Below are positions 7,601-20,202 of a DNA stretch of 64,000 bases, one piece after another. Origin of the DNA: Candidatus Loosdrechtia aerotolerans (GTDB lineage: Bacteria > Planctomycetota > Brocadiia > Brocadiales > Brocadiaceae). Position 1 is the first letter of the stretch. Every line of letters starts with the position of its first letter. The position numbers were made by a program, and so were the translations under genes. The stretch is taken from NCBI GenBank assembly GCA_021646405.1, contig SOER01000004.1, positions 1-64,000 of the forward strand, given 5' to 3'. The notes beneath the pieces were generated by a model. That model saw nothing but the letters and a program-made list of their open reading frames with translations, was not told the DNA's origin and did not search any database.

Positions 7601-7760
7601 CGGTCTGTTACCGATGATGGTATCTACGGACATAGGGGCAGAGATACAGAAGCCGTTAGCAACGGTAATCGTTGGCGGGGTATGCTTTTCGAGTTTTTTA
7701 ACCCTTTTCGTAATTCCAGCCCTCTATCAATGGTTTCCAAAGAATGTTGCGGAGGGATAA
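4647..7760 (+). CDS. HME-family RND heavy-metal efflux pump (CusA/CzcA-like), variant TM4 motif
   Basis: A 1037-residue proton-driven inner-membrane pump of full family length, with 12 predicted TM segments and two large periplasmic loops. Recognisable blocks include [29 protein letters not shown] and ELVAGVRSDIAVKLFGED. The TM4 proton-relay motif, canonically DFGxxxDGAxxxVEN in CzcA, reads GFGNITDSSVCTVEN: the first Asp is Gly (about residue 404), while the second Asp and the Glu remain. ATG 4647 overlaps the adaptor stop; ATG 4668 would begin MVNTVIECALKQRFLV, which fits the family N-terminus better, so the exact start is open. It completes the OMF-adaptor-pump operon. Sequence is closer to CzcA than to Escherichia coli CusA. 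Confidence 0.9.
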   Translation: MLRTLVFMVNTVIECALKQRFLVIIGIGVIIGLGLYYTKMLPIDAVPDVTTNQVQINTEVPGLGPVEVEKLVTFPIEFSMSSLPDITEVRSLSKTGLSQVTVTFEDHVNIYSARQLILERLQTAEAQLPKVFNVRPVMGPVSTGLGEIYQYAVTGEGKDTMELRTIQDWMVRPRLLTTPGVIEVNSFGGFVKQYQVTVDPGKLITYNITLRQVFDALAANNVNAGGQYIEHASEQYLIRGVGLVQSIQDIENIVVFATEEGTPVYIKNVADVVVGPEVRYGAVTRDGNGEAVIGIAMMLKGENSRTMVQKVKQKVKDIRQNLPDGVDIIPFYDRTDLVNNVIHTVITNVTLGIILIVIVLTLAIGNWRVSLLVAFSVPLTVFLTFSGMYYMGIAATVMSVGSLGFGNITDSSVCTVENVIQHLSKRNRNDNHRETIRIAAQEVGRPIFFAVIIIIMIYLPLLTLQGIEGKMFKPVALTVSIAMVSSLFVALVIMPTLCTITFRKGIKTKIHKEESDNRIIRFLKRYYRPLLQKTVFHPRITLIIAVSCFLSSLALIPFLGSEFMPELDEGAIAINVVRLPSVSLKESLELSALIEKTLMKYPEVETVVSKTGRAEIATDPMGQEISDVFVMLKPKETWQTARTKEGLIARMEEDLKKIPGMSYSFSQPIELRVSELVAGVRSDIAVKLFGEDLEVLRPKAEEINSVVSSIRGAEDVKTEQITGLPVMQIKIDRNAIARYGINVSDVQDVITTAIGGKVASQVLEGEMRFDLLVRFVEEARSNIEEIENILISTPGGVLVPLAQLANISIEEGPAQISRENGNRRIVVECNVRNRDIGSFVAEAQKEIRERVDIPEGYYLDWGGQFENMQRARNRLALVIPISMGLIFVLLYMSFRSFKNAALIYVNVPFAATGGIVALFLRSMPLSVPAGVGFISLFGLCVLNGTVMVSSINEFLQEGKETRNTVIEAATTRLRPVLITVVADMIGLLPMMVSTDIGAEIQKPLATVIVGGVCFSSFLTLFVIPALYQWFPKNVAEG

Positions 7761-7787
7761 AGGTAACCGGGGATAAACAGAATATTG

Positions 7788-7892
7788 AACTTGCCGGCTT
7801 GTTCGTTTACCTGTTTGCCCGTTTGCCCGCTTGCTGGCCTGCTGGCCGCTTGTTTGCCGGCCTATTGGCCTTGCGACTTGCTAGCCTGCCGG
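7788..7892 (+). repeat. C/T-rich degenerate CTTGCC repeat tract left of the 115-bp element
   Basis: About 100 bases made of imperfect iterations of words such as CTTGCC, TTGCCCG and CTGCTGGCC, ending directly at the 115-bp palindromic element. Similar tracts abut the copies at 19394 and 20174. Frames through it give Leu/Pro/Ala/Cys-rich translations, which are not credible proteins. Confidence 0.7.
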
Positions 7893-8007
7893 CTTGTTCC
7901 CAAACTCTGTTTGGGAACACAATGGGTCTCGAAACTCTGTTTCGAGGATGAAACACGAAACAGAGTTTCGTTTGAAATGGTGTTCCCAAACAGAGTTTGG
8001 GAACAAG
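7893..8007. repeat. 115-bp nested palindromic element, copy 1 (inverted core)
   Basis: Structure A-B-b-a: outer hairpins are perfect 11-bp stems with 3-base loops (TGTTCCCAAAC-TCT-GTTTGGGAACA, and its complement with AGA loop at the right end), inner hairpins have 6-bp stems CGAAAC/GTTTCG with the same TCT or AGA loops. The whole element is flanked by CTT...AAG. The non-palindromic core is the reverse complement of copies 2 and 4, so this copy is inserted in the opposite orientation. It lies between the RND pump and the YnfA gene. Confidence 0.92.
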
Positions 8008-8061
8008 AGGAAGATGAAGTTCAATTATCACGAAATGTAATATGGGGGAAAAACGGAAAAA

Positions 8062-8388
8062 ATGAATAGTATTACATCAATACTCTTTTTCATCCTTGCA
8101 GGATTATGCGAGATCGGAGGCGGGTACCTGATATGGCTCTGGCTCAGGGAGGACAAGAGCATCTGGCTCGGTTTATTTGGGGCTATCGTGCTCATTGCTT
8201 ATGGGGTAATACCGACCTTGCAGCCTGCAAACTTTGGACGGGTTTATGCCGCTTACGGTGGTATCTTTGTTGCATTATCCATCCTCTGGGGATGGCAGGT
8301 TGATAAGATTATTCCTGATAGGTTTGATTTGATCGGTGGTTGTGTTGTACTGTTCGGCGTTTTTATCATCATGTACTGGCCAAGGTAA
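8062..8388 (+). CDS. YnfA/UPF0060 family small membrane protein
   Basis: A 108-residue integral membrane protein with four predicted TM helices, the usual length of the YnfA (UPF0060) family. The family signatures are present: [15 protein letters not shown] near the N-terminus, [20 protein letters not shown] in the middle and the GxxxxxYWPR end. YnfA proteins are distant relatives of small-multidrug-resistance exporters; transported substrates are not settled. ATG 8062 follows GGGGGAAAAACGG. The gene sits between repeat copy 1 and the P-type ATPase in the metal-resistance island, which suggests a role in efflux or envelope stress, but this is contextual only. Confidence 0.9.
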
Positions 8389-8542
8389 GGACAAACGGCC
8401 GCATTTGCATCAGGCAAGGAATAAATACATTGGTTTTTTATAGTACTGTGAGCAATTACGTAAATTTGACCTGGGGAGGGTTTTGCTGTTATTATTGTGG
8501 TAAATACTATTATTGTTTTTCAGCATTTCCGGGAAGAGAATA

Positions 8543-10648
8543 ATGACGCAAGATCAGGTTGAAACGTATAAATTGAATATTGAAGGGATGGATTGCGAGG
8601 ATGAGGCAAGGATTATCGAAAAGAAATTGAGATCTCTTGCCGGGATTGAAAGTTTTGAGATTTATCTTGCGACTCAGGGGGTAAAGGTTGTCTGCAATCC
8701 TTCATTAATCTCAATTCAGCAAGTGATCAGGAGTATCGCTGATACAGGGTTAAAGGCATCATTTGTCAAGGAAGCAAGACCGAAAATTACCTGGTGGAAG
8801 GAGAAGAGGATTATAGCCCTCTCAATGTGCGGTATTCTCACCCTGGTAGCCTTTATCTTAGAAAAAACAGGAGGGAGGAATACAATAGCGATACTATTCT
8901 ACAGTATGGCTATTGTTATTGGTGGCTATTACCCTGCAAAAATGGCGTTTGGCGCACTAAAGACATTAATCCTTAATATCAGGACTCTCATGGTTACAGG
9001 TACCGTGGGGGCGATAACCCTTGGGTTATGGGAAGAAGCAGCCATGCTGATGTTTATTTATCTCCTCGGCGATATCCTGGAAATGTATACCGTAAGCAGG
9101 TCAAGGGGTGCCATACAGATGCTTATGGAGCTAGCACCGAGAGAAGCGCTCGTTCGGAGAGGCGGAACAGAAATGATTTTACCCGTGGAAGAAGTAATGG
9201 TTGCAGACCTGATCCTTATACGGCCGGGAGAAAAAATACCTCTTGACGGAAGGGTAATAAAAGGTACGTCAAGTGTTGACCAGTCGTCCATTACCGGTGA
9301 ATCAATTCCTGCCAAAAAGAAGGAAGGGGACGAGGTCTTTGCCGGCACCTTTAATCAAAGAGGTACCCTGGAAGTACAGGTAACAAAGCTATCGAGGGAT
9401 ACCACCCTTGCAAAGATTATTCATTCGGTAGAAGAGGCACAGGTAAGGAAATCAAGCTATCAGCGTTTTGGTGAACGGTTTGGAAGGTATTATACCCCTG
9501 CCATGTTTGCTGTAGCCTTCTTCATAGCAATAATTCCTCCGTTCCTGTGGGGCGGGTTTTCGTATTGGTTTTACAGGGGGCTGGTAGTGCTCGTTGTGTC
9601 GTGTTCCTGCGGCATTGCGCTCTCCATCCCGGTTGCAACCGTTGCGGTTATCGGAAATGCAGCCCGAAACGGCGTCCTGGTAAAAGGTGGGGTCTATCTT
9701 GAAATTATAGAAAAATTACGGGCCGTGGCATTTGATAAAACAGGGACGATTACGATTGGTAAGCCGTTTATTACTGATATAGTACCTTTGAATAATGAAA
9801 CGGAAGACGCTCTGTTAAAGCTGGCTGCCAGTATTGAGAATTATTCAGAACATCCTTTGGGGGAAACTATTGTAAGCACAGCGAAGGAGCGGGGATTACC
9901 GTTTTGTAATACAGATGCCTTTGAGTCTTTACCCGGAATGGGTGTAAAGGCAAATATACATACCCGTGAATATTTTATTGGCAATAAACGCCTTTTTTTC
10001 CGGTATATGATTCCGTTAGACACCGTTCACGACCGGATATATAAATTCGAAAAACAGGGGAAAACGGTTGTATTGCTGGGGTCGAGGGAAGAACTCCTGG
10101 GAATTATTGCGATAGCAGATAAGGTGAGATTCGAGGCCAAAGGTGTGATACAGGCATTAAGACACCTGGGTGTTGAAAAAATTATTATGCTTACCGGTGA
10201 TAATGAGGGTACAGCCGCAGAAATCGCCGCAGAGGCTGGCGTTGATGAGTACTATGCTAAACTGCTTCCAGAAGATAAGGTAGAGACGGTAAAGAGATTG
10301 AAGGAAAAATATCAGTACATTGCAATGGTAGGAGACGGCGTTAATGATGCGCCGGCAATGGCCGAATCCAACATTGGGATTGCTATGGGAGCGGTTGGTA
10401 CCGATATAGCTATCGAAACCAGCGACCTGGTGCTTATGTCGGATGATCTGACAAAGATCCCTTATATTGTCGGGCTGAGCCAGTGGGCGATTAAGAACAT
10501 TTATCTCAATATTGTTCTTTCTCTTCTTATTGTCGCTATCCTCGTACCTCTGGCTGTTTCCGGACGGATAGGTCTTGTACCGGGACTTCTTATCAATGAG
10601 TTAGGAGGGCTGCTCGTTATAGCAAACGGGCTCAGGTTGTTGAGATAG
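8543..10648 (+). CDS. P1B-type heavy-metal ATPase with non-canonical CSC and NELGG sites
   Basis: About 701 residues from ATG 8543 (a TTG at 8513 in frame is less likely). N-terminal HMA-like domain has GMDCEDEAR, i.e. CxxE instead of CxxC. Catalytic P-type motifs are intact: TGES in the actuator domain, DKTGT (Asp about 398), SEHPLG, TGDN and GDGVNDAP. The TM6 metal-site motif, normally CPC, SPC or TPC, reads CSC (residues 354-356, context VSCSCGIALSIP), so the hallmark proline is missing. TM8 carries NELGGLLVIANGLRLL, where Zn/Cd pumps have an Asp and Co-type pumps have HEGGT. It is an ATP-driven metal exporter by family; the metal specificity is unclear. It lies alone between repeat copies 1 and 2, in the same direction as the RND operons. 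Confidence 0.9.
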   Translation: MTQDQVETYKLNIEGMDCEDEARIIEKKLRSLAGIESFEIYLATQGVKVVCNPSLISIQQVIRSIADTGLKASFVKEARPKITWWKEKRIIALSMCGILTLVAFILEKTGGRNTIAILFYSMAIVIGGYYPAKMAFGALKTLILNIRTLMVTGTVGAITLGLWEEAAMLMFIYLLGDILEMYTVSRSRGAIQMLMELAPREALVRRGGTEMILPVEEVMVADLILIRPGEKIPLDGRVIKGTSSVDQSSITGESIPAKKKEGDEVFAGTFNQRGTLEVQVTKLSRDTTLAKIIHSVEEAQVRKSSYQRFGERFGRYYTPAMFAVAFFIAIIPPFLWGGFSYWFYRGLVVLVVSCSCGIALSIPVATVAVIGNAARNGVLVKGGVYLEIIEKLRAVAFDKTGTITIGKPFITDIVPLNNETEDALLKLAASIENYSEHPLGETIVSTAKERGLPFCNTDAFESLPGMGVKANIHTREYFIGNKRLFFRYMIPLDTVHDRIYKFEKQGKTVVLLGSREELLGIIAIADKVRFEAKGVIQALRHLGVEKIIMLTGDNEGTAAEIAAEAGVDEYYAKLLPEDKVETVKRLKEKYQYIAMVGDGVNDAPAMAESNIGIAMGAVGTDIAIETSDLVLMSDDLTKIPYIVGLSQWAIKNIYLNIVLSLLIVAILVPLAVSGRIGLVPGLLINELGGLLVIANGLRLLR

Positions 10649-10683
10649 GGGGATGGAATCACCAGGGTAACCACTCGCGCCTA

Positions 10684-10798
10684 CTTGTTCCCAAACTCTG
10701 TTTGGGAACACCATTTTACACGAAACTCTGTTTCGTGTTTCATCCTCGAAACAGAGTTTCGATGTCCATTGTGTTCCCAAACAGAGTTTGGGAACAAG
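10684..10798. repeat. 115-bp nested palindromic element, copy 2
   Basis: Same four-hairpin structure as the copy at 7893, with the core in the opposite orientation to that copy. It is nearly identical to the copy at 19394: I count two differences in 115 bases. A further half-arm, GTTTGGGAACAAG, follows at 10823-10835. It lies between the P-type ATPase and the zinc-ribbon gene. Confidence 0.92.
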
Positions 10799-10884
10799 AG
10801 GAAGAGGCAGACTCAGCACATGGTTTGGGAACAAGAAGAATTTAAAAATAACACTTTATCGTAGAGTAAGAAGGAGGTAAACAC

Positions 10885-11145
10885 ATGCAGTGTCCTATAT
10901 GTAACAACGTAAATCTTGTCATGTCTGAAAGACAGGGGATAGAGATCGACTATTGTCCGCAGTGTCGGGGTGTTTGGCTTGACCGCGGAGAACTGGATAA
11001 GATTATTGATCGAACATTTCAGCAGAGTAAACATGAACAGAAGCATTTTCATGGGCATAGGGATTATGATGATAAGAAGTACCGTGATTACGGCTACAAG
11101 AAGAAAAAACGTGGATTTCTTGGAGAGATATTTGACTTTGATTGA
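10885..11145 (+). CDS. TFIIB-type zinc-ribbon protein, 86 aa
   Basis: Residues 1-45 match the zf-TFIIB family: MQCPICNN at the start and DYCPQCRGVWLDRGELDKI after it, giving CxxC...CxxC for one structural zinc. The second half is His/Lys/Tyr/Asp-rich (HEQKHFHGHRDYDDKKYRDYGYKKKKR), a tail often seen on these proteins, and could itself bind metal. AAGGAGG lies 8 bases before ATG 10885, a strong ribosome site. The molecular role of this family is poorly known. Fifty-six bases separate it from the second RND adaptor gene, so the two may be co-transcribed. Confidence 0.85.
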   Translation: MQCPICNNVNLVMSERQGIEIDYCPQCRGVWLDRGELDKIIDRTFQQSKHEQKHFHGHRDYDDKKYRDYGYKKKKRGFLGEIFDFD

Positions 11146-11201
11146 TGATGGCAGCGTTATAACACGAGAGTGCTATTCGAGAAAACAATACAATATTATT
11201 T

Positions 11202-12731
11202 ATGAAAAATTCGCTCATTCATTTTAAAAAAATACTGGCTGTTGGTGTACTTATCCTTGTGGGGATTATCCTGGCGTTTGTTATCCTCCGTATAGAGAAA
11301 ACAACCGTTAACCATCCACACGAGCATACCCATGGAGACACCCTACACCAGGAGGAAGAGGATGGATCAAGGGGACCCCACGGAGGAAGGTTATTATCTG
11401 ATACAGATTTTCAGATTGAGATTGCCGTATATGAACGGGGTATCCCCCCTCATTTCAGGGTGTATCCACTGTATAAGGGACATGCAGTAGACCCCGGTAA
11501 GGTAAAATTGATTGTGGAATTGTATCGGCTAGGCGGCAGGGTTGATGTCATTCAGTTCCAGGAGGAGGGTGAATATCTTCGCAGTGAAAAGATTATTGAA
11601 GAACCACACTCTTTTGATGTTAAGGTAGTAGCGGAGTGGGAGGGTAATTCGTATCGATGGGAATACTCTCAAAGGGAAGGAAGGGTTGTGCTTTCACCTG
11701 AAGCACTGCGCAACTCAGGAATTATTGTCGAAACTGCAGGGCCGGTTCAAATACGGAGCACACGTGTGTTTCCGGGTGAAATTAAGCTGAATGCAGATAA
11801 GGTCGTACATGTTGTCCCAAGGGTTTCAGGTGTCGTTGTAGAAGTGTATAAAAACCTTGGAGATGCCGTACGGCATGGTGAGGTTATGGCCGTTCTTGAC
11901 AGCCGGGAGATAGCAGAACTGAGAAGTGAATACAGAGCTTCGGTTAAATGGCTGGAACTGGTACAGGCAAATTTTCAGCGAAAAGAGCGCCTCTGGAGGC
12001 AGAGGATCTCTCCTGAACGGGAGTATCTCGAGAGCCGGCAGGAACTGGCAGAAGCTGAAATACGGCTGCAGGAAGTTACTCAAAAGCTATTAACCCTGGG
12101 GTTCTCGCAGGACGATCTGAATCTCATTCCGGAAAAAATAGGAGAAAATCTTTCACGGTATGAGATCCGTGCACTGTTTGACGGAACTGTTATTGAAAAG
12201 CATATTACTGTCGGTGAAGCGATCGGAGAAAATGCTGATATTTTTGTGCTTGCAGATCTTTCAACCGTTTGGGTGGAAGTCACAATATATGCGAGAGATT
12301 TAAAGGTGGTAAGAATTGGACAGGACGTTGTGGTACGGTCTGATATCGTAGGCATAGAAACAGAAGGTACGCTTACCTATATTGCTCCCCTCGTTGGGGA
12401 ACAGACACGGACTGCCCGGGGAAGGGTTGTTATACAGAATACCGAAGGACTCTGGCGTCCCGGTCTCTTTGTGACCGTTGAGGTTATATATGAAGAGGTG
12501 AGAGTACCGGTAGGTGTATCCGCAGATGCAATCCAGACCCTGGATAATCATTCCGGCGTCTTTGTAAAGTATGATAATGTGTTCGAATTCCATCCCCTGG
12601 AATTAGGGAGGAGGAGCGAGGCGTGGGTAGAGGTACTGGACGGTATATCGCCGGGAGAGCAGTACGCTGTCCGAAATAGCTTTATCCTGAAAGCTGATTT
12701 AGGCAAAGCAGGGGCGGTTCATGAACACTGA
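11202..12731 (+). CDS. RND efflux periplasmic adaptor with His-rich N-terminus (CzcB-like)
   Basis: A 509-residue membrane-fusion protein. Residues about 9-30 are a single hydrophobic anchor. A His-rich segment follows (HPHEHTHGDTLH, about residues 38-49), then the GPHGGRLL block and an N-terminal beta domain typical of CzcB adaptors, then the lipoyl-like (RVSGVVVEVYKNLGDAVRHGE), helical-hairpin and beta-barrel (EIRALFDGTVIEKHITVGE; ADLSTVWVEVTIYARD) domains. The C-terminus ends HEH. It docks onto the RND pump encoded after repeat copy 3. No outer-membrane factor gene accompanies this pair. Histidine rather than cysteine ligands suggest zinc, cobalt, nickel or cadmium, in contrast to the Cys-rich adaptor at 3295; this is inference. 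Confidence 0.9.
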   Translation: MKNSLIHFKKILAVGVLILVGIILAFVILRIEKTTVNHPHEHTHGDTLHQEEEDGSRGPHGGRLLSDTDFQIEIAVYERGIPPHFRVYPLYKGHAVDPGKVKLIVELYRLGGRVDVIQFQEEGEYLRSEKIIEEPHSFDVKVVAEWEGNSYRWEYSQREGRVVLSPEALRNSGIIVETAGPVQIRSTRVFPGEIKLNADKVVHVVPRVSGVVVEVYKNLGDAVRHGEVMAVLDSREIAELRSEYRASVKWLELVQANFQRKERLWRQRISPEREYLESRQELAEAEIRLQEVTQKLLTLGFSQDDLNLIPEKIGENLSRYEIRALFDGTVIEKHITVGEAIGENADIFVLADLSTVWVEVTIYARDLKVVRIGQDVVVRSDIVGIETEGTLTYIAPLVGEQTRTARGRVVIQNTEGLWRPGLFVTVEVIYEEVRVPVGVSADAIQTLDNHSGVFVKYDNVFEFHPLELGRRSEAWVEVLDGISPGEQYAVRNSFILKADLGKAGAVHEH

Positions 12732-16241
<3,510 letters not shown>

Positions 16242-16261
16242 ACCACCGGGTATGGAGTGAC

Positions 16262-16392
16262 AATTTGTAAAATCCGAAATCCGAAATCCGAAACAAATCC
16301 GAAATCCGAAACAAATCCCAAATCCCAAAATCATGCTGTTTAGAATTTGGAGTTTGTTTCGGATTTCGTGCTTCGTATTTCGTATTTTACAT
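16262..16392. repeat. AAATCCG tandem repeat with inverted partner
   Basis: From about 16268 to 16331 the word AAATCCG or AAATCCC is iterated at least seven times, interrupted by AAAC. A looser inverted counterpart follows at about 16345-16390 (GTTTCGGATTTCG, then TTCGTATTTCGTATTTT). It occupies the space between the convergent RND pump and M16 peptidase genes. There is no clear U-run terminator. Confidence 0.75.
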
Positions 16393-16435
16393 TCCTTATC
16401 CCGTGCTTGTTTGGTTCCTGGCTGTATATTCGTAT

Positions 16436-19102
16436 CTACTCCACAATAACAATGAGGTAATTGTCATTCCGAAATACCTGATGTATCAGGCGTTTCAGGT
16501 CTTGCGGGGTAACGTCTTTCAGTTTTTCATTATAGAGGTCATCTGCTTCAGGTGTTCTTCCCTCGAGAAGTTCCATGCTAATGTAGTAAGCCTGGCTCAC
16601 GCGGTCGAGTCTCCTCATGCCACGTCTTCCAATGGCGGCATTGATCGTCTTCTGCACTTCATCGGCCGTGAAAACGGCTTTCCGTAAACGGGAGATTTCT
16701 TTCTGTATACCAGTAGTGGCACGCTCAATATTCTCTGGCCGGGTACCCATGGTAATCAGGTACCACCGTGCATTATGATATTTCTGAGTACTTACACCAA
16801 TAGTATAGGCAAGTCCCTGTTTCTCTCTCAGATTGAATGCAAGCCGGTCAGAAAAAAGGTCCATAAGAATATGGAGTGCTGGTCTGTCCTCTTCTGCAAT
16901 ATCAAAGGTATTTGCAAGAGCAATATACGACTGTGGTTTGCCCGACTTCTCATGGAGTGTGGTACCGAGTTTACCAAATTGCGGTGTAAACTCCGGAGGC
17001 TGCCATCCGGATTCTCCCCATGTACCGCCAAAATGATTTTTGACAAGATCCATTACGCCTTCGATTGATTGATTGCCCGAGATAACAATAATAAGGTTTG
17101 CGGGGTTGTAAAATTTATGGTGGAATGCTTGCATCTCCTGCACCCGGACCTGTCCCAGCCTTTCCGCATCGCCGAGCAGCCAGCCAAACCCAGGATTTTC
17201 TGCAAACAGATTATTATATAAGAGCCGGTACGCAATCTTTGGTGTACTTACCGTTTCCGCTGCAGAAAGTGATATAACCTCTTTTTTTACCCGCTCTAAG
17301 GCTTCTTCTGTAAGGAGCGGCCGCGATATCATTTCTGTAAGCAGGCCGAGGCCTTTTTCAAAAAAGGTATCAATTAATTTCAAGCGGATGTAAGCAAACC
17401 GGGGGGAGTGGTAATAGTCATCGAAGGGTATAAAAGGACTGTCATGCAATTTCAATTCAGCCCCAATAGATTCAAATGCCTGATACAGTGCCCTGCCGGG
17501 ATGTTCTTCTGTTCCACCCTCAAGGAGCATTCGCTGTAAAATTTCTGTCATTCCCCATGCATCTCTGCCCTCGCTTACACTGCGTTCTTTGGCTAATACA
17601 TGGATACCGATGACCCGGCTGTCCCTGTTCTCTTTCACTGCGACCGTTAAACCGTTTTCCAGGGTTTCTGTATGATAGCGGTTGGGTGACCGTGTTTCAG
17701 AAACATCGGATATTTGACGAGGAGGTGACATTATCGTAACTACGGGTATTTGTGTGCGAAGATACTGCTCTGCTGCTTTCTGAATAGATGCCGGCGTCGT
17801 TTGCATTAACCCGTCCTGATAATCCTGGAGGAATGAATAACCGCCTGCCGCAAGATAGCCTGATTTCATCATTCCATAGTAGTGAAGCTGTTCCTGGAGA
17901 TAAATTTCATGCGTTTGTTGTGCTACCAGGGTTGATGTTATTTCGCCGGCAGGAACTGGATTTTTTGCCATATCCTCTACAGTTCGTGTAATCAATGCTA
18001 TGATACGGTCCACATCGGCACCTGCAGGTAGTTCTGCAAAAATTTGTAAGAGAGAAAAATCACGGTTAAAATCCAGACTTGCACTAATCATGTTCACGAG
18101 ATTTTTATGAGGTTTCTGTCTGAAAAGTGTTTTCAGCACCGAGTTTTCTTTGCCGCCGAGGAATTCTGCCAGGAGTTTTAACGACGGGAAATCTACTGCA
18201 GTCGGCGGCGGTAAGAGGTAACCCATGGTAAGATAACAGCGGTCTTCCGGGAATTTTTCTCCTGCATTTACCCGGGTAATACGCAAACGCAATGGCTGCC
18301 CGGGCTGGACAGGTTTGTGTTCCGGGAGTGGTCCGGGTGGATAGTGTCCATATTTTTCTTCAATCAGCTCCAGCATTTCTGATGGTACAAAATCACCGAT
18401 TACCATCAGGGTCATATTATTGGGTACATACCAGGTTTTGTAATACGCAAATACCTGATCGCGTTGTAAATTCAGAATGGTAGAGACTGTTCCAAGGATA
18501 GGACGCTCATACGGTGTACCGGAAAAAAGGATTTTCTGAAAATAATTCTGTACCTGATATGTTGGTTGGTTCGCGGATTTACCAATCTCCTCAAGAACGA
18601 TACCGCGCTCTTTCTCGAATTTTTCCGGAGGTAATGTAGAGTTAAACAACATGTCTGCCTGGATATCCATCCCCTGAGCGATATATTCTTTTGGCATGAG
18701 GATCATATAATTCGTATGATCCATGGTCGTGTGGGCATTATTGTAACCGCCGTAAAAATCCATTTCACTGTAAATCTGTTCCTGGGTACGATTTTTTGTG
18801 CCGTTGAAGAGCAGGTGTTCAAGAAAATGGGCTGTTCCGTTACTGGCAGCATCTTCGTTGCGGCTGCCGGCTTTTACCATAGTAACTGCCGCAATCATAG
18901 GATTGGCGTGATTCTCGATGAGGATAACCTCCATGCCGTTATCAAGGTAGAATACGGAGGCCTGCCGGGTTCTTTGAAACAGTTCAGGTGGAGTATTTCC
19001 GGAGTCTTTCCCATAGCATATCAATTGGCTGATGAGGGAGAATAGGCTCAGGGTTACAACACAGGGGGTGAAAACGGTTTTTATTTTTTTCAGAATGTAC
19101 AT
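16436..19102 (-). CDS. M16 family zinc metallopeptidase (two-domain, PqqL/insulinase type), secreted
   Basis: An 888-residue protein with an N-terminal signal segment (MYILKKIKTVFTPCVVTLSLF). The first M16 half has the inverted zinc motif HFLEH (about residue 92) and, downstream, the ligand region ERGIVLEEIGK. The second half (from about 470) has the M16 fold but no HxxEH, as is usual for the inactive clamp domain of single-chain M16 enzymes. The predicted location is periplasmic. Such enzymes degrade peptides inside a closed chamber. The gene stands alone and convergent to the RND pump. The start ATG at 19102 is chosen because it immediately precedes the signal peptide. Confidence 0.9.
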   Translation of the reverse strand: MYILKKIKTVFTPCVVTLSLFSLISQLICYGKDSGNTPPELFQRTRQASVFYLDNGMEVILIENHANPMIAAVTMVKAGSRNEDAASNGTAHFLEHLLFNGTKNRTQEQIYSEMDFYGGYNNAHTTMDHTNYMILMPKEYIAQGMDIQADMLFNSTLPPEKFEKERGIVLEEIGKSANQPTYQVQNYFQKILFSGTPYERPILGTVSTILNLQRDQVFAYYKTWYVPNNMTLMVIGDFVPSEMLELIEEKYGHYPPGPLPEHKPVQPGQPLRLRITRVNAGEKFPEDRCYLTMGYLLPPPTAVDFPSLKLLAEFLGGKENSVLKTLFRQKPHKNLVNMISASLDFNRDFSLLQIFAELPAGADVDRIIALITRTVEDMAKNPVPAGEITSTLVAQQTHEIYLQEQLHYYGMMKSGYLAAGGYSFLQDYQDGLMQTTPASIQKAAEQYLRTQIPVVTIMSPPRQISDVSETRSPNRYHTETLENGLTVAVKENRDSRVIGIHVLAKERSVSEGRDAWGMTEILQRMLLEGGTEEHPGRALYQAFESIGAELKLHDSPFIPFDDYYHSPRFAYIRLKLIDTFFEKGLGLLTEMISRPLLTEEALERVKKEVISLSAAETVSTPKIAYRLLYNNLFAENPGFGWLLGDAERLGQVRVQEMQAFHHKFYNPANLIIVISGNQSIEGVMDLVKNHFGGTWGESGWQPPEFTPQFGKLGTTLHEKSGKPQSYIALANTFDIAEEDRPALHILMDLFSDRLAFNLREKQGLAYTIGVSTQKYHNARWYLITMGTRPENIERATTGIQKEISRLRKAVFTADEVQKTINAAIGRRGMRRLDRVSQAYYISMELLEGRTPEADDLYNEKLKDVTPQDLKRLIHQVFRNDNYLIVIVE

Positions 19103-19261
19103 GGATTTTAAGGAATAAAAAAATGTGCGAGTATATATTTTACGTACATTAAAAACAAGTTATGGAAATTATTTTCAAAGACTGATATATCGTAATATGA
19201 AAGTTAACATGTTCTGTTCGGTCTCACCTGTTGATTACTATAGCACTCCTCACTCAACGTT

Positions 19262-19393
19262 TGCAGAAAGTTTGCTCACCTGCTTTACTTGCCTCTGCTC
19301 ATCTGCTTGCCTGTATACCTGCCACCGCCTGCTTGCCCTGCCTGCCCCACCTACTTGCCCCAACCTACTTGCCTCGTCTGCCTACCCCACCTA
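19262..19393 (+). repeat. C/T-rich degenerate CTTGCC repeat tract left of copy 4
   Basis: About 130 bases of imperfect CTTGCC, CTGCTTGCC and CCTACTTGCC iterations on the plus strand end directly at the 115-bp element. The tract is the counterpart of the one at 7788. The preceding 19103-19261 holds nothing recognised except the upstream region of the M16 gene. Three overlapping frames through this tract are repeat translations, not genes. Confidence 0.7.
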
Positions 19394-19508
19394 CTTGTTC
19401 CCAAACTCTGTTTGGGAACACCATTTCACACGAAACTCTGTTTCGTGTTTCATCCTCGAAACAGAGTTTCGAGGTCCATTGTGTTCCCAAACAGAGTTTG
19501 GGAACAAG
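19394..19508. repeat. 115-bp nested palindromic element, copy 4 (flanks transposase remnant)
   Basis: Four-hairpin element as above. Its right edge lies 49 bases from the stop of the RAYT pseudogene. A further half-arm GTTTGGGAACAAG follows at 19520-19532. Near-identical to the copy at 10684. Confidence 0.92.
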
Positions 19509-19557
19509 AGGATGGCAGGGTTTGGGAACAAGAGGAGGAGATGAGAAATAAATATTT

Positions 19558-20093
19558 TCATAAAACTAATTCATCAATCTGAATAATTGAATGATCATTG
19601 GAATAGTAATTTCTGTAAGAACTGTAGCACCAGTTTTCAGGCAAATCAATAAGACCACGCCTTACCGGATTGTAATGAATATATTCAATCTTTTGTCTTA
19701 GCATTTCTTCATTCAACATCAGTTGTGGATGGAAGCCCTCCTGCCATATCTGATAATTACATCCTGTCTTGTATTTCTTCTTATAAAATGCAAGCTGACT
19801 TAACAGCCATTGCTTGCGGTCCTGTTTTAACTGATCAATGTCTCTTTTGCTGTGAACTTCTTAAATGAAGTCAATGTAGCTGATAACTCAGGTGCCTCTG
19901 TAAGAAGATGGATGTGATTGTCCATAATCACAAATGCATAAAGTTTTAATCCTTTATGTGTTTTGCAATATTTAATTGATTCTACGATTATATCACAGTA
20001 TTTTTGAGAGGTAAAAATAGGCATCCACTCGACAATAGTAGAAGTTACAAAATAGATCCCATCCTTTTCTATAATTTTATACCTGGTTCTCAT
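19558..20093 (-). pseudogene. REP-associated tyrosine transposase (RAYT, IS200-like Y1 family), frameshifted
   Basis: Frame one runs from ATG 20093 for 88 codons: IIEKDGIYFVTSTIVEW, then the HUH-type metal motif DNHIHLL, then SFKKFTAKE, and stops at 19827. A second frame carries the rest to a stop at 19558-19560: DQLKQDRKQWLLSQLAFYKK, then CNYQIWQEGFHPQ, then KIEYIHYNPVRRGLI. Joined, they give about 178 residues with all the blocks of a RAYT-like protein, so a single-base indel in the region 19827-19862 has broken the gene. Family members nick and move REP palindromes as single strands. The remnant is bracketed by a 115-bp element on one side and a solo outer hairpin on the other, the layout of a REPtron. 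Confidence 0.85.
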
Positions 20094-20103
20094 TTTTATC
20101 CCC

Positions 20104-20173
20104 TTTGACCAGCCTACTCACCTACATACCTTTTCGCCTGCTCATCTATTGCCCCGCCTGCTTGCCCTGCCTG
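20104..20173 (+). repeat. C/T-rich degenerate repeat tract left of solo hairpin
   Basis: About 70 bases of CCTGCTTGCC, CCTACTCACC and CGCCTGCTC iterations, again ending directly at a TTGTTCCC arm. It is the third instance of this association. Confidence 0.65.
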
Positions 20174-20202
20174 CTTGTTCCCAAACAGAGTTTGGAAACA
20201 AG
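20174..20202. repeat. Solo outer hairpin of the 115-bp element, copy 5
   Basis: The sequence from CTTGTTCCCAAAC through AGA to GTTTGGAAACAAG is a single outer hairpin with one mismatch (GGAAAC for GGGAAC). It lies 81 bases upstream of the RAYT start, so hairpins of the same family flank the transposase remnant on both sides. Confidence 0.88.

Follow-up and report, generated by a model that had tools for sequence, protein, structure and literature searches.

The described systems closest to the repeats reported here are built around REP (repetitive extragenic palindromic) hairpins and the REP-associated tyrosine transposases (RAYTs, or TnpA-REP). In the REPtrons of TnpA-REP class 2 (Quentin et al. 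2018, PMC6006769), a protein of about 178 aa with an NHIH, WQ and Y---NP signature is encoded in each genome by a few gene copies that have diverged, hairpins lie on both sides of the gene as well as dispersed, and the taxonomic spread is patchy. Those TnpA-REPs that have been characterised cleave REP in its single-stranded form, at a CT dinucleotide next to the hairpin (PMC8266576). In the usual description, RAYTs have been domesticated and REPtrons do not move as units (PMC6006769, PMC8266576). In REPINs (Bertels and Rainey 2011, PMC3116915) two REPs form an inverted doublet of about 110 bp that is extragenic and folds on one strand as a long hairpin, with singlets as remnants and a linked RAYT type. 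The class 2 and REPIN features listed above recur in a family of four-hairpin elements in a 64,000-nt stretch of DNA (the window) from the anammox-family genome of Candidatus Loosdrechtia aerotolerans (GCA_021646405.1, contig SOER01000004.1, positions 1 to 64,000), in which an outer and an inner hairpin are followed by their mirror image (A-B-b-a).

It is proposed, with a probability of about 0.85, that these elements are non-autonomous mobile repeats of a RAYT system (REPtron), resembling REPINs or miniature inverted-repeat transposable elements (MITEs). The copies are dispersed, share one layout, are linked to RAYT genes in other genomes and end at a sharp CTTG boundary, and relatives have the same gene neighbours without them. 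The kind (REPtron, REPIN and bacterial interspersed mosaic element, BIME) is already known; this family departs from it in its CT[C/T]GTTCC foot, its double-hairpin ends and a distribution among phyla that is out of step with host phylogeny.

In the window, eight outer hairpins are perfect and a ninth has a single mismatch. They lie at the positions given in an earlier model reading of the letters (the sequence-only reading), whose four full elements and solo hairpin are confirmed in position, stems and loops (Table 1). Dinucleotide shuffles of the window gave no outer hairpin, and a direct-repeat finder returned the same four copies, with 83, 91 and 98% identity to the copy at 10680-10802. 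The full elements are 113–115 bp long, with outer stems of 11 bp, TCT/AGA loops and inner stems of 6 bp (CGAAAC/GTTTCG) that reach 8-9 bp in some copies. The copies at 10685 and 19395 differ, as had been claimed for two copies, by about two bases (98%), but the copy at 7893, described as inverted in its core, is instead the whole element reversed, matching the consensus at 97% on the minus strand and 82% on the plus strand.

The last full copy and the solo hairpin bracket a frameshifted RAYT pseudogene that the sequence-only reading did not report. Its halves lie in different frames, the HUH half in an open reading frame (ORF) at 20093-19827 and the tyrosine half at 19860-19561, and are 73% and 77% identical to an intact RAYT of a relative (genome G020); the NHIH and YIHYNP motifs are both readable across them. 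The intact protein passes the NCBIfam model REP_Tyr_transpos (NF047646; 106 bits, cut-off 80) and its sole PDB match is 4er8, the E. coli TnpA-REP, so that the hallmarks of a RAYT protein (HUH, Y---NP, profile match) are found by way of this relative together with the motifs of the pseudogene. The NHIH/WQ/YIHYNP set fits no published REPtron subclass exactly; the nearest is 2.6, with 179 aa, 'atypical secondary structures' and mostly Bacteroidetes members (PMC6006769). Given that a Y1 HUH transposase gene lies between end hairpins, as in IS200/IS605, and that short derivatives share those ends, the elements might instead be an insertion sequence of that type and its MITEs. This is extremely unlikely: the intact protein scores 21 bits against the IS200 model, below the cut-off of 55, while passing the RAYT model; its tyrosine motif is Y---NP and not Y---Q; a genome has few gene-bearing copies, and these are diverged (for example 71% in G020), with no high-copy identical ones; and the ends are inverted copies of each other, with no tnpB seen.

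No intact RAYT of the clade described below was found in this genome, where assembly gaps may hide one. Because of this, and because the RAYT neighbouring the elements is frameshifted, the copies here are probably inactive remnants of a system that is probably inactive now. A RAYT relative at C60 (L164) is also broken; it was rejected as a second source of copies since it adjoins a different hairpin type (CGTTCCAACGC-like), and is not counted as cognate.

In the RAYT tree, the window RAYT belongs to a supported clade of 26 rows (96/98), some inner branches of which are weak, with members from Planctomycetota, Verrucomicrobiota, Ignavibacteria, Syntrophales and 'Deltaproteobacteria', and Methylococcales. 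The element with its RAYT gene is present in at least five bacterial phyla; clade RAYTs are not grouped by phylum, and members from the anammox order stand in at least three places of the tree. As judged from sequence, the case for RAYT mobilisation of the repeats is strong on linkage. A RAYT flanked by hairpins that recur elsewhere is found both in the window and in the clade, where 36 of the 50 segments that touch a clade RAYT contain GTTCC-type hairpins, against 1 of the 186 segments lying over 500 nt from one (P 8e-30). On the outer side of the clade hairpins GTTCC is preceded by CTC or CTT, and in those beside clade RAYTs CT stands at exactly one foot in 42/48 and at both feet in 2/48. 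Hairpin and RAYT also co-occur among 392 genomes of the phylum (13/15 vs 23/377) and outside the family (4/5 vs 13/363), these counts being drawn from genomes related to one another. The exact 23-nt hairpin is also present in Chloroflexi, Gemmatimonadota, Bacteroidota and Thiomargarita metagenome-assembled genomes (MAGs), and 14 of the 35 hairpin-bearing genomes searched gave a RAYT at E<=1e-40, 12 of these within the clade. TIRtrons (TIRYT; Di Nocera et al. 2013, PMC3733652) likewise place a tyrosine transposase gene between inverted repeats, of which some are double-palindromic and some amplified, but the repeats described there mostly share GGGGWSAS or are unrelated, whereas those reported here are hairpins whose GTTCC foot is conserved across phyla.

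At many clade loci, weaker inner hairpins with the same kind of core lie inside the outer ones. The layout A-B-[RAYT]-b-a is present in G005, a Brocadia MAG, G021, Syntrophales and Spartobacteria, and the gene-less A-B-b-a in G005, Ca. Jettenia ecosi, another Planctomycetota MAG and a Methylococcaceae MAG. (From identical match coordinates, G017 is taken to be Ca. Jettenia ecosi, G015 Ca. Kuenenia hertensis and G340 a Ca. Brocadia MAG.) Since the window element has this layout minus the gene, it is best read as a REPIN/MITE-like derivative of the RAYT element that this RAYT would have spread, and the gene-less form would derive from the gene-bearing one. Compared with REPtrons, the foot is CT[C/T]GTTCC instead of GT[A/G]G and each end has a second, inner hairpin. 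An inverted REP pair folding as one long hairpin is found, as in a REPIN, but with four hairpins rather than two, tens of copies rather than hundreds and, in relatives, a RAYT gene inside the same frame.

A mechanism can be proposed on this basis. The gene-bearing form consists of outer hairpin A with its CT[C/T]GTTCC foot, the weaker inner hairpin B, the RAYT gene and the mirror image, and the 113-115-bp element of A-B-b-a with the gene left out. Once the DNA is single-stranded the palindrome would fold, and the HUH-tyrosine RAYT would recognise the outer hairpins and cut at the conserved CT beside the foot; this CT is present as a sequence feature, the cleavage site being putative. The excised strand would then be joined elsewhere and, as predicted for a Y1 mechanism, no target duplication of the kind made by DDE transposases would arise. 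Deletion between the direct repeats that A and a share (GTTCCCAAAC or GTTTGGGAAC) would be expected to leave the form seen in solo hairpins.

The sequence-only reading had placed the elements in a metal-resistance island. They are in fact spread over the 3.26-Mb genome, which beyond the window was read as stretches around copies: its perfect outer hairpins number 45, and full or near-full elements about 26. CTTGTT is invariant across the 56 outer hairpin ends of the genome. A single base beyond CTTG, conservation has fallen from 2.0 to 0.76 bit, and the sequences further out include 36 different 12-mers. Because of this fall and the varying flanks, CTTG/CAAG is taken as the edge of the repeated unit. 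CTT is on one side only in 40 of 48 genome hairpins, which are members of A...a pairs, and on both sides in the remaining eight, which are solo. Several flank types nevertheless recur beside CTTG, and partial hairpins lie around copies, so that larger BIME-like mosaics exist: as in BIMEs, several palindromic modules occur in varying order and alternating orientation with recurrent flank types, although the modules are unrelated in sequence to those of E. coli and binding of a host protein is known for none of them. Four or more elements within 11.6 kb arise in 0.2% of random trials, and the density in the window plausibly reflects local spread from the RAYT locus, by analogy with what has been suggested for other REPtrons (PMC8266576). 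Contig C60, however, is also dense at 17000-50000 (L161, L166), where 33 kb hold about six elements that are full or nearly so, along with several solo hairpins, but no cognate RAYT lies nearby.

As single-stranded DNA the unit is predicted to fold back on itself (z -14.4). Four independent hairpins were rejected as the most stable fold, the long A:a/B:b foldback being stabler both as DNA (-48.7 vs -38.3 kcal/mol) and as RNA (-72.7 vs -52.2 kcal/mol). The stability of the RNA foldback raises the possibility that the elements are retained chiefly for what they do in RNA, as hairpins by which metal-efflux transcripts would be stabilised, terminated or processed between pump genes; transcript processing had been suggested in the sequence-only reading. 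Since three copies are flanked by genes of the metal-pump cluster on one strand, they would be transcribed, and effects of REP sequences on the stability and termination of mRNA have been reported (PMC6006769). This explanation is very unlikely, given that relatives run the same gene junctions without the element, copies are spread over the whole genome, an Rfam search with the element matched no family, and the RAYT linkage and sharp CTTG edge are left unexplained; an RNA effect may be a by-product of the elements.

The gene neighbours in relatives bear equally on how the elements came to lie between the pump genes. The spacing from czcA1 to ynfA is 149-211 nt without hairpins in five relatives (G005, G020, G017, G021, G010) but 301 nt in the window; from the ATPase gene to cusB it is 9-15 nt in G005, G012 and G007 but 553 nt in the window, which includes a Zn-ribbon-like ORF; and from cusB to cusA it is 118 nt in G005 but 319 nt in the window. 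No hairpin element was found at the cusB/cusA junction in any of 16 relatives. In several genera of the family, czcA-ynfA and ATPase-cusB-cusA are thus neighbours with no element present, so the gene order predates the elements. These comparisons are most simply read as insertion in the lineage of the window, and the suggestion that the elements took part in assembling the island is rejected. Mobility and amplification, also proposed in the sequence-only reading, gain support from the dozens of dispersed copies, the element-free neighbours and the cognate transposase family; the copies do not occur only at the five window sites, and relatives are element-free at the junctions. Contrary to that reading, the blocks of the island are not all neatly separated by the elements: copies lie at the czcA1/ynfA, ATPase/Zn-ribbon ORF and cusB/cusA2 junctions, and the last full copy upstream of an M16 peptidase gene.

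Exact junctions were sought at two sites of J. ecosi by comparison with its genus mates G005 and G012, and no clean junction was obtained: one site is a composite insertion of about 820 nt, and at the other the element is part of a larger cassette that has inverted TATGCATCAAGCTAAG motifs as its ends and, in G005 and G012, unrelated filling. In a rival reading, another mobile cassette with inverted TATGCATCAAGCTAAG ends would carry the units along, and the RAYT would be incidental; inverted pairs of this motif flank many copies in the L. aerotolerans genome, and J. ecosi, G005 and G012 have the same cassette ends around different fillings. This is highly improbable, however, since no exact TATGCATCAAGCTAAG copy adjoins the window elements at 7893, 10684 and 19394, and the motif is limited to 3 of 24 genomes surveyed while the hairpins and their RAYT linkage extend across phyla. 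The motif occurs 41 times in this genome, 26 times in G005 and 45 times in G012, where it is present without any such hairpin, and is absent from 21 other relatives, including the same-genus genome G001.

Several points weigh against reading the elements as RAYT-mobilised repeats. No transposition has been seen, and no exact insertion junction is readable because divergence of the relatives is too great at the window sites. The GT[A/G]G foot of canonical REP is absent, all 56 outer ends in this genome reading CTTG. The flanking hairpins of the clade were found by an inverted-repeat search, so that their perfect pairing is no independent evidence. Furthermore, the search at E<=1e-40 found no RAYT in 21 of the 35 genomes that have the exact hairpin, be it through MAG gaps, loss or another enzyme, and the hairpin-rich family genomes G003, G015, G017 and G022 are without a RAYT.

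A wider interpretation is offered tentatively, at somewhat under even odds: that RAYT elements whose ends have four hairpins (A-B-gene-b-a) and a CT[C/T]GTTCC foot form a distinct, pan-phylum class, passed between phyla as a unit and shedding gene-less A-B-b-a copies in each genome. In that case the REPINs seen here would be literal MITEs of a mobile RAYT, as opposed to the repeats of a transposase that is purely domesticated. For the question of how REP repeats spread, gene-bearing and gene-less forms in one four-hairpin frame, with clade RAYTs interleaved among phyla, make a clean comparative system. A culturable host is offered by Salinivibrio kushneri, whose 562-kb plasmid NZ_CP114587 (L343) encodes a 45% identical transposase with hairpins of the same kind (TTCCCACGC-type, CTCG foot) on both sides. 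As a caution, such repeats between operon genes should not be taken for island-building or regulatory modules.

Table 1. Positions of the elements and associated features in the window
Feature	Position	Strand	Context
Full A-B-b-a element	7893..8007	-	czcA1/ynfA junction, reverse orientation; minus strand 97% to consensus
Full A-B-b-a element	10684..10798	+	P-type ATPase gene/Zn-ribbon ORF junction; 98% to consensus
TATGCATCAAGCTAAG motif, 16 bp	12825..12840	+	41 copies genome-wide; frequently paired in inverted orientation outside the element
Full A-B-b-a element	12869..12983	+	cusB/cusA2 junction; 94% to consensus
Full A-B-b-a element	19394..19508	+	3' side of RAYT pseudogene, 54 nt from RAYT 3' end; equals query consensus
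RAYT (TnpA-REP, Y1_Tnp) pseudogene, frameshifted	19561..20093	-	Bracketed by copy 19394 and solo hairpin 20174
Solo outer hairpin	20174..20202		5' side of RAYT pseudogene; CTTG/CAAG both sides

In a literature search by the hairpin letters, the 30 papers listed out of 310 had unrelated titles and were apparently matched through primer or other sequence strings, and no report of these repeats in anammox genomes was recognised from the titles and abstracts of the library searched. More distant RAYT groups in the phylum (L253, L256-L259, L261, L265, L266) have their own distinct flanking hairpins, for example TGCTGTCAGGAGG, GGGTTCAGGTT and CACGGACAAAC, which indicates that several REPtron types coexist in these genomes.

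Just outside several window elements, at 7745-7890, 19260-19390 and 20110-20172, lie degenerate CTTG-containing tracts (cttgcctgcc-like), and in J. ecosi the same place holds clean tandem arrays (ctcgttgg, ctactacaag); such arrays at the element edges look like the outcome of slippage or repeated cutting. The Zn-ribbon-like ORF (10885-11145), between the element at 10684 and cusB, had no NCBIfam match; relatives lack it at this place, and a protein 84% identical to it is encoded elsewhere in the G012 genome.

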